From positions 18,297-82,296 of the forward strand of contig CAMJFC010000007.1 of NCBI GenBank assembly GCA_946404865.1: DNA of 64,000 bases, written 5' to 3'. The notes beneath the pieces are model-generated. The model was given only the letters and a program-made list of their open reading frames with translations. It was not told the DNA's origin and did no database searches. A program made the translations under genes and the position numbers. Shown one piece after another: positions 7,722-61,068 of this stretch; positions within the stretch are counted from its first letter, which is position 1; every line of letters begins with the position of its first letter. The DNA comes from an uncultured Prevotellaceae bacterium (GTDB lineage Bacteria; Bacteroidota; Bacteroidia; Bacteroidales; Bacteroidaceae).

Positions 7722-7761
7722 AGGCTTCGCTTTGATGCTGCAAAAGTAATCATTTTTTTAA

Positions 7762-7900
7762 ACATAGGAACATAAGGGCCTGTTTTTTTGACATAGGAAC
7801 ATAAGGACATAATTTTCAGACATAGGAACATAATGACATAATTTTTAGACATAGGAACATAAGGACATAATTTTTAGACATAAGAACATAAGGACAAATT
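7762..7900. repeat. Tandem 29-bp intergenic repeat (5 units)
   Basis: Units beginning ACATAGGAACATAAGGACATAATTTTTAG at 7762, 7791, 7820, 7849 and 7878 (exact 29-bp period). Confidence 0.85.
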
Positions 7901-8008
7901 TTTTACTCGCTTATTTGTACTTTTGGCTCCGCTGAAAGTTCTCTCGCTCTTTAGCCTTTGCACTTATGGGACATGTTTAGGTCTAAGAAATGGAAAATCC
8001 TCAAAAAA

Positions 8009-43730: not shown

Positions 43731-43800
43731 AGTGTTTTGGTTTTTAGTTGTTAACAGACGAACATAATAGTAATTGCTCTGCAAAAATAATCTTTTTTTT

Positions 43801-43910
43801 CGACATATGAACATAAGAACAAATATTTTTACATAAGAACATATTTTTTTCGACAGATGAACATAGGAACATTTTTTTGACAGATGAACATAGGAACATA
43901 ATTTTTCTTT
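43801..43910. repeat. Degenerate copies of the GACATAGGAACATAAGGAC-type repeat
   Basis: CGACATATGAACATAAGAACA..., ACATAAGAACATATTTTTTTCGACAGATGAACATAGGAACAT..., GACAGATGAACATAGGAACATAATTTTT. Confidence 0.75.
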
Positions 43911-51762: not shown

Positions 51763-51960
51763 CGTAACTTTGGCTTCGCCGAAGTTACTGGCACTCGGTC
51801 AAGCAAAAGAAAAAGGGATTTTTCTTTTGCTTGACACTCGTTTTTTCGTAACTTTGCCACGTTGTGGCGAAGTTACTCTGTCTCGGCATAAAAAAGAAAC
51901 AGGTTTCTTTTGTTCTGCCCTCGACTTTTCGTAACTTTGCAGCGGAGTGCCATCAGCGGC
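51763..51960 (+). repeat. Tandem ~84-bp promoter/hairpin units upstream of AAA ATPase gene
   Basis: TAACTTTG at 51765, 51849 and 51932; hairpins GTCAAGCAAAAGAAAAA-GGGA-TTTTTCTTTTGCTTGAC (51798-51835) and AACTTTGCCAC-GTT-GTGGCGAAGTT. Confidence 0.8.
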
Positions 51961-51976
51961 ACGAAAGGAGAGCACG

Positions 51977-53596
51977 ATGAAACAGGAAGAGAATAATCGC
52001 ATAGGCTATGCCGTGGGCGTGCATGAGTTTGACTGGATACGCGAACGCGGAGCGAGGTATGTCGATAAGACGGCATACGTCTATCGGATGGTTGCTACAG
52101 AAGCCAAATATTTCTTTTTAAGCCGGCCGCGGCGCTTCGGCAAGTCACTGCTGGTGGATACCCTGCGCTGCTACTTCGAGGGGCGCAAGGAACTGTTCGA
52201 GGGTTTGGCCATCTACGACATGGAGAAGGAGTGGCGCAAGTATCCCGTCATCCGCCTCGACCTGTCGCGCGGCAAGTATTTCGCGCGCGAAGAAGTGCAC
52301 CCCATCTTCAACAGCATCCTCAGCGACCATGAGCGGCGGTGGAATGTGACGTGCCGCGATGAATACAGCTATGGAGCCCGTCTGACAGACATCATACAGG
52401 CGGCGCACCAGCAGACGGGCGAGCGCGTGGTGGTGCTCATCGACGAGTACGACGCGCCGATGCTCGACAGCATCAACGACCACGCCCTGCAAGAATATAT
52501 CCGCAACCGTGTGCGCTCGCTCTTCTCGCCATTGAAGGAGCAGGCGCAGTATCTCAGGTTCGTCTTCCTGACGGGTATCTCGAAATTCTCGCAACTGTCG
52601 GTGTTCAGCGAGCTCAACAACCTGCAGCAGCTCACGTTCAACCCCGCCTACGAGGGCATCTGCGGCATCACCGAGGAGGAACTGCTCACGCAGCTGAAGC
52701 CCGATATCGAACTTCTGGTAGAGAAACAGAACCACCTTGACAGGCATGAAGGCATCACCCACACCTTCGACAGCATCGTGGCCGACCTGAAATACTGGTA
52801 CGACGGTTACCATTTCTCCAAGGAAATGACTGATGTCTATTGTCCGTGGAGTCTGATCAACGCCTTCTCCATGGGCGACATCATGAACTTCTGGTTCTCC
52901 TCTGGCACGCCCACCTCGCTCATCAACATCCTGCGCACGCGCACGAATATCTCGCTGACCGAGCTGGAGGGCTACACCGCCAAATTGTCCCGCTTCGACG
53001 CGCCCACCGAGCGCATCACCGACCCCATACCGGCGCTCTTCCAGAGCGGCTACCTGACGCTGAAAAGCTACGACAGACGGCGCAATCAGTGGACGCTGGG
53101 CTTCCCCAATGAAGAGGTGCGCGAGGGCTTCGCCCACAGCCTCTACCAATACTACATGGAGGACTACGTGGGCAGCGCCGACGCACTGGCCATCGCCTTC
53201 AACGACCTGCGGTTCCAAGACAAGACGTTCGAGCAGTTTGTCGAGGTCATACGCAAGTGGTATGCCGGAATACCGTATAGCATCACGGATAAGAACCAAA
53301 ACGAGCAGCTTTATCAGTCATTGCTCTATGCGGGTTTCCTCGCTGTGGGTGCCGACATCCAGGCCGAGGACCAGACCTCAGACGGACGGATGGACATCGC
53401 GCTGAAGTTGCCGCACGGCATCTACATTCTCGAACTGAAATACAATAAGAGTGCCGAGGAGGCCACCGACCAGATCATCGCCAAGGACTATGCCGTGCGC
53501 TTCGCCGCCGACACGCGCCCCGTCTATGCCGTGGGCATGAACATCAGCGCCGACCGCCGCACCATCGACCGCGCCAAGATTGTCAGGGTGAAGTAA
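51977..53596 (+). CDS. AAA-ATPase-like/PD-(D/E)XK nuclease domain protein (DUF1703-type)
   Basis: YAVGVHEFDWIRERGARYVDKTAYVYRMV; FLSRPRRFGKSLLVDTLRCYF; DGRMDIALKLPHGIYILELKYNKSAEEATDQI; ATG 51977. Confidence 0.9.
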   Translation: MKQEENNRIGYAVGVHEFDWIRERGARYVDKTAYVYRMVATEAKYFFLSRPRRFGKSLLVDTLRCYFEGRKELFEGLAIYDMEKEWRKYPVIRLDLSRGKYFAREEVHPIFNSILSDHERRWNVTCRDEYSYGARLTDIIQAAHQQTGERVVVLIDEYDAPMLDSINDHALQEYIRNRVRSLFSPLKEQAQYLRFVFLTGISKFSQLSVFSELNNLQQLTFNPAYEGICGITEEELLTQLKPDIELLVEKQNHLDRHEGITHTFDSIVADLKYWYDGYHFSKEMTDVYCPWSLINAFSMGDIMNFWFSSGTPTSLINILRTRTNISLTELEGYTAKLSRFDAPTERITDPIPALFQSGYLTLKSYDRRRNQWTLGFPNEEVREGFAHSLYQYYMEDYVGSADALAIAFNDLRFQDKTFEQFVEVIRKWYAGIPYSITDKNQNEQLYQSLLYAGFLAVGADIQAEDQTSDGRMDIALKLPHGIYILELKYNKSAEEATDQIIAKDYAVRFAADTRPVYAVGMNISADRRTIDRAKIVRVK

Positions 53597-56852: not shown

Positions 56853-58151
56853 TTATAGAAAAGAGGCAAGATACAAGGGGAGGTAGAGAATGCCGTTGCG
56901 GTGCGTAACGTTGTATGGGCTAAACACAATGGCTCTGTTGATTATTTCGGGATAAGCCTCCATGGCTGCATCCAGGGATGGGTGCTTTTTGTAACTGTCG
57001 CCAGACTTCACTTCAATAATGGTGATCTTATTTTTTTCTTCAATGATGAAATCGAGTTCTTGTCTGCTTTTCTTGTCGAAATAATGGAGTGGGATGTTTT
57101 TGCCGGATAGCACACAGGCTATGTAATTTTCAGTCAAGGCACCCTCGTTGATGCTCAGATTGCCATTAAGGACATCAAACAGGTTGCCTTTGAGCAACAC
57201 GCTGCTCAAAAGCCCCGTGTCAACCATGTATAGTTTATAGAGCCTTCTGTTTTCTGTCGCCGCGAAAGGCAGTGAGAAAGCTGTGGTGTTGAACGAGTAG
57301 TAGGCAATGCCGGCGTCAATGAGCCATTGTGTGGGGTCTTCGTATTTTCGAAGGGAAGCCCCTTTCTCTAAATTGGCCAAAATGAAACGCTTGTCTTGTT
57401 TGCCCAGTTCTGAAGGGATGGCATCAAAAACACGCTTGACCAGTTGTTGGTCTTTGCCGGCGTAGTTGGTGATGTCTGCCCTGTATGTGGTCAGTATAGA
57501 GTGGTGTACTCTTGCCACGGCGTTGAGGTCAGGGTTGTCGATATAGGTCTGTACGGCATCTGGCATACCGCCGATAATCAGGTATTGGCGATAATACATC
57601 CCCATCTGCCCGTGTATGAAATCGGGCAATGCCTCCTCTTTCTGGCATGATTTGCGCAATAGGGAGATGATGTCGTCTGCCACACCCTTAGCCCATAGAA
57701 ATTCCTCAAAGTCAAGAGGATACATTTTTATCTCTTCTTCGTACCCTACAGGGAATGAGGGAACGGGCTTATAATTGATGCCTAATAACGACCCCGACTC
57801 GATATAGTCGTATTTTTGCTCCTCGACCAGAAATTTGATGGCAGTTCGTGCCTTCGGACATTCCTGTATCTCGTCAAAGAAGATGAGCGTCTTCCCCTCA
57901 ACAAAGGGGCCAAACCCCATTGCCGATAAATTGGTGACAATGGTTCTTGTGTCGAGGTCGTGTTCGAAGGCTTGTATGGCTGTTGGGTGCTTCACAAAAT
58001 TGATTTCTACAAAATGCGCATAATTTCGTTTGGCAAACTCCCTTACGGCAGTTGTCTTCCCTACTTGTCTGGCACCCGTAAGCAACAAGGCTTTTTTATT
58101 TTTCAAGCGATACCACTCTTCTATTTCTGTAATGACTTTTCTTTCAAGCAT
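56853..58151 (-). CDS. ATP-binding protein, AAA_14/DUF4143 family
   Basis: KNKKALLLTGARQVGKTTAVREFAKRNYAHFVEINF; KTLIFFDEIQECPKARTAIKFL; C-terminal LDFIIEEKNKITIIEVKSG. Confidence 0.92.
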   Translation of the reverse strand: MLERKVITEIEEWYRLKNKKALLLTGARQVGKTTAVREFAKRNYAHFVEINFVKHPTAIQAFEHDLDTRTIVTNLSAMGFGPFVEGKTLIFFDEIQECPKARTAIKFLVEEQKYDYIESGSLLGINYKPVPSFPVGYEEEIKMYPLDFEEFLWAKGVADDIISLLRKSCQKEEALPDFIHGQMGMYYRQYLIIGGMPDAVQTYIDNPDLNAVARVHHSILTTYRADITNYAGKDQQLVKRVFDAIPSELGKQDKRFILANLEKGASLRKYEDPTQWLIDAGIAYYSFNTTAFSLPFAATENRRLYKLYMVDTGLLSSVLLKGNLFDVLNGNLSINEGALTENYIACVLSGKNIPLHYFDKKSRQELDFIIEEKNKITIIEVKSGDSYKKHPSLDAAMEAYPEIINRAIVFSPYNVTHRNGILYLPLYLASFL

Positions 58152-58185: not shown

Positions 58186-58334
58186 TTTGCAACTTTTTAC
58201 AACTAAATTTGTGCTCTATTTACAACTTCTTGCAGCTAAATACACGTTTACTTTGCAACTTTTTGCAAGGGGTTATATGTCTTATTTGCAACTTTTTGCA
58301 ACATATTATGCCGCAAATTTACAACTTTTTTCAG
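58186..58334. repeat. Five 17-bp iterons at exact 33-bp period upstream of the DUF4143 ATPase
   Basis: TTTGCAACTTTTTGCAA-type units at 58186, 58219, 58252, 58285 and 58318, each separated by a 16-nt spacer. Confidence 0.92.
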
Positions 58335-59110: not shown

Positions 59111-60388
59111 ATGATAGTTACTATAATTGTCATTATAATTGCGTTTATTATATACTCATTATCAATCCATTATATCAAAAATTGGATTCATGGTAAGGTA
59201 ATAGATGCAAATCCAAACAAAGACAAGGATGAGTTTTACAAAAAGCATCCTTCTGCAAGGCAGTATGTTGATAATGAACATGTCTGGAATCCCTCTTTTA
59301 AATTAGAACATCAGGGGTTTAGGGTTTTCAATATTCCATTTGTGCCAGAGGATAATGAAATTTTCTATATTGAAAATGATTATGATGAAGAAGCCAATCT
59401 GTTCATCCAAGAAAACCTTGATCTCATAAGAGAAATCCTTGCCAAGAAGGGGCTTACTTTTGTTTATTTGCCATACATAAGTGTTTCTAGAGAAATGGCA
59501 GAGTCGATGATAGCCTATTACTCGGCAAATCTTATAGTTAAATCTATCGATAATGAAGATTATAAGCATGGTCTGAAAAGTGATTTTCTCTTAGATTATA
59601 TGGTGAGTCCACAAAACCGTCCTCATATTACTCATGGCTTTTGCTGGTATAATCAGAAGAAATCTTTATTCAATTTCAAAAAAGTCTGGTATGTCTTTGA
59701 TTATATCTCATTTGATGGAGCTGAAGCAAGACAACATCCACGCGAGGTGTTAGAAGATATGCTTCCTGAATTGGGAACAAAAAAGATATGGAGAAAAGGA
59801 CTTTATAGTGAAGGAACGATAGAGAGTGATGGTCTTGCTGACGATAACTTTGATGCAGAAACAAAGAAGATCCTTTCGGAAATTCAAGAAAAGCTTAATT
59901 CTGTCAGACTTAAAGGTATCAGTGAGGCTATCATAGCGCAGTATGTGAAACCTTGCCCTCAATTAAGCCGGATAACTATAAGCAAAGACTTTACTATCAC
60001 CCTTAATGACTATAATCATTTAGAGATAACAATGGAGCCTCTTGTAAAAGCAGTGTTCATTCTCTTTTTGCGTCATGAAGAAGGCATCTTATTTAAGGAA
60101 TTGTCAGACTATCGGGCAGAACTCGAGATTATATATAGAGCTATAAAATCTAAGCATAATGACATAGAAGAAAAAATGCAATCAGGTTTTGCTCCCCAAA
60201 TAAGTAAAAGTGTAAAGAACCTTACTAATCCACTCAGCAATTCCATCAATGAGAAATGCACACGAATAAAAGAGGCATTTATACTTCATTTCCATGATAG
60301 TATTGCATCAAACTATTATGTACAAGGCTTGCGAGCGTCGGAAAAGTTAATTAGGATTTCAAGGAATTTGGTAATCTGGGAGAAATGA
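59111..60388 (+). CDS. Hypothetical protein with N-terminal TM and conserved-looking C-terminal helical domain
   Basis: 425 aa, low-GC; TM MIVTIIVIIIAFIIYSLSIHYI; C-terminus FILFLRHEEGILFKELSDYRAELEIIYRAI...SINEKCTRIKEAFILHF...LIRISRNLVIWE. Confidence 0.75.
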   Translation: MIVTIIVIIIAFIIYSLSIHYIKNWIHGKVIDANPNKDKDEFYKKHPSARQYVDNEHVWNPSFKLEHQGFRVFNIPFVPEDNEIFYIENDYDEEANLFIQENLDLIREILAKKGLTFVYLPYISVSREMAESMIAYYSANLIVKSIDNEDYKHGLKSDFLLDYMVSPQNRPHITHGFCWYNQKKSLFNFKKVWYVFDYISFDGAEARQHPREVLEDMLPELGTKKIWRKGLYSEGTIESDGLADDNFDAETKKILSEIQEKLNSVRLKGISEAIIAQYVKPCPQLSRITISKDFTITLNDYNHLEITMEPLVKAVFILFLRHEEGILFKELSDYRAELEIIYRAIKSKHNDIEEKMQSGFAPQISKSVKNLTNPLSNSINEKCTRIKEAFILHFHDSIASNYYVQGLRASEKLIRISRNLVIWEK

Positions 60389-61068
60389 TAATGAAGCAGG
60401 CAACACTTATTCGTCTTGAGCAAATACTCAATAAGGTAGAGAAAGGAAACGAATTTGTTATTATTGCAATAATCTCTATCATTATTTGCCCGTTCATTGC
60501 AATATACGAAGCATGTAAATATGTTGTAAGAAAGATTCGGGGGATGGTTCAGGGAATGGTCTATGACGCAGATAGGGACAAGTGGATAACTAAAAAAGAA
60601 AAGGCAAAGGAGCGTTTGAAAGAGAAACAGACTAATAGGGAGATTCCACTAAAAATCGAAAATCACGTCATGCCTGAAAAGAATGGCAGGTTTTATTTCT
60701 TTGAAAAAAGGAAAATTATTATCCCTTATGACAAACTTGTTTATGTAGAAACGACATATAACGAAAAAATGCATCGCTTCTTCGAGGAAAATGCAGAATG
60801 GCTTGATACTTGGCAGAAATGGCATGGATGGGATATCGTCTCATATAGTTATGAGGATATTAAAGAGGGTATGTTATATCCAGAGGACTTTGTGGTTTTC
60901 AAACATGGTTTCCTTTGGCACTCTCCTAGGAGTTCGTGGGATAAGGAGTCTGATATTTATGGAAATATTCATTATTATTTTGAAATCGATCCAGATTCGA
61001 CCACTTCTATAAAAGAGCAAATGGAACTATTCATACGTCAAATATATGATGCAATAGATTGGGCATAA
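60385..61068 (+). CDS. Hypothetical membrane-anchored protein
   Basis: ATGA overlap with the upstream ORF; TM segment FVIIAIISIIICPFIAIYEA. Confidence 0.7.
   Translation: MIMKQATLIRLEQILNKVEKGNEFVIIAIISIIICPFIAIYEACKYVVRKIRGMVQGMVYDADRDKWITKKEKAKERLKEKQTNREIPLKIENHVMPEKNGRFYFFEKRKIIIPYDKLVYVETTYNEKMHRFFEENAEWLDTWQKWHGWDIVSYSYEDIKEGMLYPEDFVVFKHGFLWHSPRSSWDKESDIYGNIHYYFEIDPDSTTSIKEQMELFIRQIYDAIDWA

Follow-up and report, generated by a model that had tools for sequence, protein, structure and literature searches.

The DNA analysed here is a 64,000-nucleotide (nt) stretch (the window) from an uncultured Prevotellaceae bacterium (assembly GCA_946404865.1, contig CAMJFC010000007.1, positions 18,297–82,296). 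Its minus strand carries a gene for an AAA_14-DUF4143 protein of 432 amino acids (aa), preceded by five short direct repeats at an even pitch. Sequence comparisons make it fairly probable that this array is the gene's own operator, on which copies of the encoded ATPase would sit next to one another, most likely to repress their own gene. Arrays of the same pitch precede homologous genes in many phyla, their units covary with the protein, and they overlap the promoter. Of the two parts of this proposal, binding of the array by the encoded ATPase is likely; autorepression as its main use is the option we favour, with less assurance.

The array upstream of the window gene

The gene occupies positions 56853–58151, with its ATG at 58151, and the array spans 35–183 nt upstream of this start codon on the gene's own strand. 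The 17-nt units start at 58186, 58219, 58252, 58285, and 58318, exactly 33 nt apart throughout (33, 33, 33, 33), and are separated by mutually unlike spacers of 16 nt. The starts, the spacing, the differing spacers, and the distance to the start codon all stand as given in a preliminary description of the window. Its wording of a constant repeat was generous, as units depart from the consensus TTTGCAACTTTTTGCAA by up to three mismatches (1, 3, 0, 0, and 3, in the order of the starts above). Read from the gene-distal end, unit 1 (CTGAAAAAAGTTGTAAA, 58318–58334) has three mismatches, units 2 and 3 (TTGCAAAAAGTTGCAAA, 58285–58301 and 58252–58268) are perfect, unit 4 (CTGCAAGAAGTTGTAAA, 58219–58235) again has three, and unit 5 (TTGTAAAAAGTTGCAAA, 58186–58202), which ends 34 nt before the ATG, has one.

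A pattern search of the 64 kb allowing ≤3 mismatches returns exactly five sites, all on one strand, against a chance expectation of 0.24 ± 0.49; none of 100 shuffles reached five. Likewise, when the 260 nt before the gene are scanned for periodicity, 33 ranks best among 43 periods with a score of 0.91, compared with a mean of 0.62 ± 0.037 and a maximum of 0.80 in 2000 shuffles. Across the rest of the 3.3-Mb genome the 17-mer recurs at ≤2 mismatches only four times, as lone sites on other contigs. The array is thus unique to its locus, and a genome-wide regulon for the unit was rejected on the same evidence. The idea that the 33-nt period reflects coding triplets was also rejected, since ordinary genes lack such periodicity.

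The encoded protein

The window protein has Pfam matches above cut-off to AAA_14 (9e-28) and DUF4143 (1.9e-27), and the PADLOC profile PDC-S01 matches its full length (residues 1–432) at 1.1e-152. By profile, length, and domain order, the gene is a member of PDC-S01, a candidate phage-defence family. PDC-S01 is reported to rank fourth in abundance among prokaryotic defence candidates, most of which still await validation according to the same paper (PMC12988326). In rumen genomes it is reported as the single locus met most often (PMC13356809).

A structure model of the protein (predicted local distance difference test score 89, predicted template modelling (TM) score, pTM, 0.88) shows an AAA+ domain at residues ∼1–158, a helical part, a winged helix at residues 232–310 (57222–57458, minus strand), and a PD-(D/E)XK nuclease-like domain at residues 311–432 (56856–57221, minus strand); the domain limits were read from the secondary structure of the model. 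The Walker A/B and PD-(D/E)XK residues are intact (G26, R28, G31-K32, D93-E94, E341, E365, D367, E380, and K382), and E341, E365xD367, and E380xK382 are conserved in the nuclease-like domain. No close sequence relative was found among PDB chains, the profile giving midasin P-loop matches only. The best Foldseek folds for the model are the archaeal AAA+ ATPase SSO1545 (2FNA) and then the Orc1/Cdc6-origin complexes 2V1U and 2QBY, with MuB, TnsC (7MBW), and DnaA among the lower matches. Model and fold matches agree on an AAA+ domain followed by a winged helix, as in the Orc1/Cdc6-like initiator fold.

Phased arrays across the family

We scored the 260 nt upstream of homologous genes for tandem periodicity, taking z > 3 as significant. 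Of 92 homologues within the same taxonomic family, 69 show significant upstream periodicity, and in 67 of these the period is 31–34 nt (33 in 46 loci and 32 in 16). A search of homologues for 33-bp phasing had been proposed in the preliminary description as a check on its reading, and the reading survives it. After reduction to <70% identity, 37 of 48 loci keep the 31–34-nt array. When the redundancy-reduced family loci are pooled with the cross-phylum set described below (125 loci), 31–34 is the single best period in 111, with 11.6 expected. In the controls, such arrays precede just 2 of 262 ordinary genes, drawn from random stretches of the same family, and none of 29 genes of PF09820, another ATPase-nuclease family. 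The arrays comprise three to six units, and the gaps between units are 33 nt (121 cases), 32 nt (43), 34 nt (7), or 31 nt (6), with none beyond this range in the unit table.

A scan of named genomes yielded 80 relatives across Bacteroidota, Bacillota, Actinomycetota, Spirochaetota, Verrucomicrobiota, Fibrobacterota, Alphaproteobacteria, Chloroflexota, and archaea. A significant array at period 32 or 33 precedes 59 of 79 cross-phylum relatives, a set with an archaeon in it; many of these records are metagenome bins, in which contamination can misplace a contig. Isolates nonetheless give the same picture, with arrays in Bifidobacterium pullorum (L243), B. callitrichos (L248), Collinsella (L278), Parafannyhessea (L217), Odoribacter lunatus (L223), and Ruminococcus bromii (L209). 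Relatives on viral contigs carry it in 12 of 18 cases, as does a copy on a Bacteroides fragilis plasmid. The exact two-unit window pattern, sought in viral contigs as a phage decoy, gave no match. We regard a family-wide cognate array as near certain. The searchable literature, which leaves subscription papers and preprints outside its reach, reports no upstream array for PDC-S01, DUF4143, or COG1373. The passages on PDC-S01 in PMC12988326 and PMC13356809 mention none, DUF4143 is named in a single paper, and the array, its phasing, and its clade-specific units appear to be undescribed.

The window genome holds two further loci of this kind. One DUF4143 gene (G000:C90, L007) is preceded by five GTATCTTGCGGAATTGT-type units at a 33-nt pitch. 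Another (G000:C16, L005) is truncated, its 5′ part being replaced by four GAAAATGTGATTTT units at a ∼32-nt pitch, which are either an orphan array or a recombination scar. Upstream regions in the family also show weak secondary periodicities near 21–23 and 42–43 nt, as if A-tracts were phased with each helical turn, possibly giving intrinsic curvature.

A different geometry is found in the short canonical DUF4143 clade (∼386 aa), which has no 33-nt arrays. Here, a strong dyad (e.g. GGTACAAATTCGGAATCGGATTCCTAATTTGTACC) directly precedes the ATG in 72% of 29 loci, versus 3% of ordinary genes. These dyads (L126–L155) are near-perfect, 25–45 nt long, and lie ∼0–50 nt upstream of each ATG. That a single protein family has self-linked sites of two geometries adds weight to the operator reading.

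Units covary with the protein

Units from 144 loci align on a loose core, cTTGgAAAA(a/g)TGt. The version in the window's clade is TTGCAAAAAGTTGCAA, with close forms in its 58–75% relatives, and other clades have TTGGAAAAGTGT, TTGGAAAAACGGCAAA, TCGCTTGAAAAAGTGT, CCGAAAATGTGATTT, and others. Units are gene-specific within one genome and common to orthologues across phyla; one genome (G165) encodes six paralogues with six different units. Between orthologues the units differ by 0.22 and the spacers by 0.39, and the register is maintained across 35–75% protein divergence. Unit distance rises with protein distance (Mantel rho 0.267), the maximum in 999 permutations being 0.12.

Given whole-protein distance, the unit is tracked best by residues 121–146, an AAA+ loop encoded at 57714–57791 on the minus strand (partial r 0.23 and 0.21), and also by residues 235–254 in the winged helix (0.20); the null maximum is 0.165. 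Covariation with the unit is absent from the nuclease domain (partial r −0.06). Archaeal Orc1 contacts origin DNA through an AAA+ insertion and its winged helix, so the covariation at the loop and winged helix matches what self-recognition would predict. With phased homologues, unphased controls, and units that follow the protein, the earlier suggestion of a protein-binding array tied to the encoded ATPase, and not a product of slippage, gains support.

As a separate observation, one viral contig encoding a 60% identical protein (L330, upstream of 4001) has the unit TTTGCAAAAAGTTGCAAA at the centre of a ∼49-nt near-perfect palindrome.

Promoter overlap and a model for autorepression

In 106 Bacteroidota arrays, the −7 box TAnnTTTG has preferred offsets from the unit of 12 (20 loci), 23 (11 loci), and 24 (16 loci), the mean being 2 per offset. 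TATAAT-like boxes in other phyla favour offset 24, more weakly (7 loci versus a mean of 1.8), and this offset puts the TTGnAA of the unit in the place of a −35 element, 17 nt upstream. These preferred offsets of −7 and −10 boxes suggest that the units overlap the promoter from which the gene is transcribed, so a bound protein would block it. In the window, a candidate Bacteroidota −7 box, TAAATTTG (58314–58321, minus strand), overlaps the 3′ edge of unit 1 and may be the one in use.

We propose that each 14–17-bp unit would be a binding site for the AAA+/winged-helix/PD-(D/E)XK product of the neighbouring gene. Protomers or small oligomers would sit side by side on one helix face, one per three turns (32–33 bp), and would probably read the site through the AAA+ loop and winged helix. 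Where units supply a −35/−33 element or abut the −10/−7 box, occupancy would most likely repress transcription and so keep a potentially dangerous nuclease low. Repression would lift when the ATP state changes or when invading DNA titrates the protein. Phased repeats beside the genes of homologues, a unit that covaries with its putative binder, and sites that overlap the promoter are the features of a cognate operator or iteron array.

Several points weigh against this model. By our test, roughly one homologue in four lacks a significant array, and some subclades have a dyad instead. The permutation tests behind the covariation remove shared ancestry only partly, and the promoter-offset enrichment is set against a mean per offset and not a formal null. 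Matches to PDB folds reach modest TM-scores, the highest being 0.46, so the likeness to Orc1/Cdc6 is a resemblance of architecture and not a claim of clade membership. Physical binding, cooperativity, the direction of regulation, and the link to defence are all things that we infer from these patterns. Finally, the candidate −7 box in the window lies at the far end of the array, so that four of the five units would sit downstream of it in the 5′ leader.

Co-mobility of array and gene

Copies with 95–98% DNA identity share a block that runs from the array's distal edge (or from ∼200 nt up) to within ∼15 nt of the stop codon. The shared extents around the gene are −98 to +14 or −208 to +7, and the flanks are unrelated. 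One insertion (L180) has a counterpart in another genome where the site is empty (L179/L180), and the comparison reveals an 11–15-nt direct repeat, GCTTTTTTTAG, on both sides of the insertion; this filled or empty cassette site lies at a terminator T-run. One genome (G021) has two 91%-identical cassette copies (L194 and L195), both at contig ends, so that the cassette, being multi-copy, breaks the assembly. The 3′ boundary of the mobile block falls at differing points near the stop codon, over some tens of nt, and no 3′ repeat was found there. Because this boundary is inconstant and the ends do not match, we do not claim a transposon. A Tn7-like transposon end, which would call for sites at each end and for boundaries that do not vary, was rejected on the same observations.

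For the cassette in the window, relatives conserve frr-rsgA, and homology stops at the end of rsgA. None of 149 relatives gives a long match to the upstream flank, and a joined empty site could therefore not be shown. Elsewhere in the same genome (G000:C44:9460–9978, L325), a 96%-identical 3′ half of rsgA is fused out of context to another frame.

Alternative explanations

The co-mobility data are the grounds for a reading in which the array is the end of a mobile unit, recognised by the protein as TnsA/TnsC recognise Tn7 ends, so that array and gene are moved together. The narrow extents shared by near-identical copies, the one filled/empty pair with its direct repeat, and the paired copies at contig ends would all fit. 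We nonetheless consider it quite improbable: besides the inconstant 3′ boundary and the absence of a repeat or inverted end on that side, the protein has no DDE or other strand-transfer domain, most pairs are without target-site duplications, and the more diverged pairs are explained by selection that acts on the gene with its operator while the flanks decay. A platform role is more plausible, if still unlikely. Here, the protein-bound array would serve for loading or assembly of an ATPase-nuclease filament that senses or destroys foreign DNA, and autorepression would not be its main use. DnaA boxes, origin recognition box (ORB) elements, and MuB/TnsC filaments are the models for such a platform, and it draws on the fixed three-turn phasing over three to six units, the AAA+ initiator-like fold with MuB, TnsC, and DnaA among its lower matches, active-site residues conserved throughout, and the candidate-defence status given to PDC-S01 in PMC12988326. 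However, the array goes with the promoter of its own gene and is absent elsewhere in the genome, a position that a defence platform would not need.

The placement of the candidate −7 box in the window makes RNA-level control of this gene possible, and the units might then act in the RNA leader, where the protein or another factor would recognise repeated A-rich motifs rather than DNA. As an account of the array we judge this very improbable. Spacing is fixed at 32–33 nt, gaps of 31 or 34 being rare, as helical phasing of DNA predicts, many loci have units upstream of or inside the promoter, and the protein fold is of a DNA-binding initiator type. Binding by a common host factor, or a neutral minisatellite, is hardly credible and already contradicted. 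A-rich units could attract nucleoid proteins, a point that no result supports, whereas gene-specific units common to orthologues across phyla, unrepeated spacers, and a register that outlasts 35–75% protein divergence all speak against both ideas. A slippage minisatellite was rejected because the spacers are unlike and the unit is better conserved than the spacer between orthologues.

The operator model also admits a more speculative extension, in our view distinctly unlikely, in which the array would be the 'self' tag of a selfish ATPase-nuclease cassette. In an initiator-like filament, the protein would read the code specific to its own clade, recognition would both silence the gene and guide or license nuclease action or movement, and paralogous cassettes within a genome would form orthogonal address systems.

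Other features of the window

Two further phased arrays lie between genes unrelated to DUF4143: five copies of a 29-nt unit, TTTTTAGACATAGGAACATAAGGACATAA, at 7755–7903, and related GACAGAAGAACATA repeats at 43794–43906. An 83-nt tandem duplication (51780–51940) lies directly upstream of an AAA-ATPase_like/PDDEXK_9 gene (51947–53596). Two adjacent open reading frames at 59111–60388 and 60385–61068 (425 and 227 aa) have no Pfam match.

Relation to known systems and significance

The array shares features with several known systems. Like Orc1/Cdc6 with its ORB elements and DnaA with its boxes, it pairs an AAA+ protein that has a DNA-binding domain with repeated directional boxes. Unlike them, it precedes its own gene and not an origin, keeps a strict 32–33-bp pitch, differs in its units between paralogues, and belongs to a protein with an attached PD-(D/E)XK nuclease. 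Plasmid iterons are phased direct repeats beside a winged-helix Rep gene that also serve as its operator, usually ∼20–22 bp apart. The likeness lies in phased direct repeats adjoining the gene of a winged-helix protein, as with Rep autorepression; here, there is no replicon, the unit is chromosomal and single-gene, the protein is unrelated, and the pitch is 32–33 bp. Tn7 ends likewise combine repeated end sites with an AAA+ ATPase and a PD-(D/E)XK nuclease, but the present repeats are one-sided and come with no strand-transferase and no fixed 3′ end.

Constant units and unlike spacers of fixed length also recall a clustered regularly interspaced short palindromic repeats (CRISPR) array, which the preliminary description had dismissed. 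We agree. CRISPR arrays have near-identical repeats of ∼23–50 nt, strain-unrelated spacers, and cas genes, whereas these units are 14–17 nt long, degenerate, and drifting, their 16-nt spacers are common to close orthologues, a candidate promoter lies inside the array, and no cas gene occurs among the neighbours examined.

Part of the abundance of PDC-S01 may reflect mobile cassette behaviour, and counts of the family call for corresponding caution. A family-wide cognate site would be a first concrete ligand for PDC-S01. It would make binding, regulation, nucleotide dependence, and the trigger directly testable, and the family offers hundreds of natural protein-site pairs from which a recognition code may be read.
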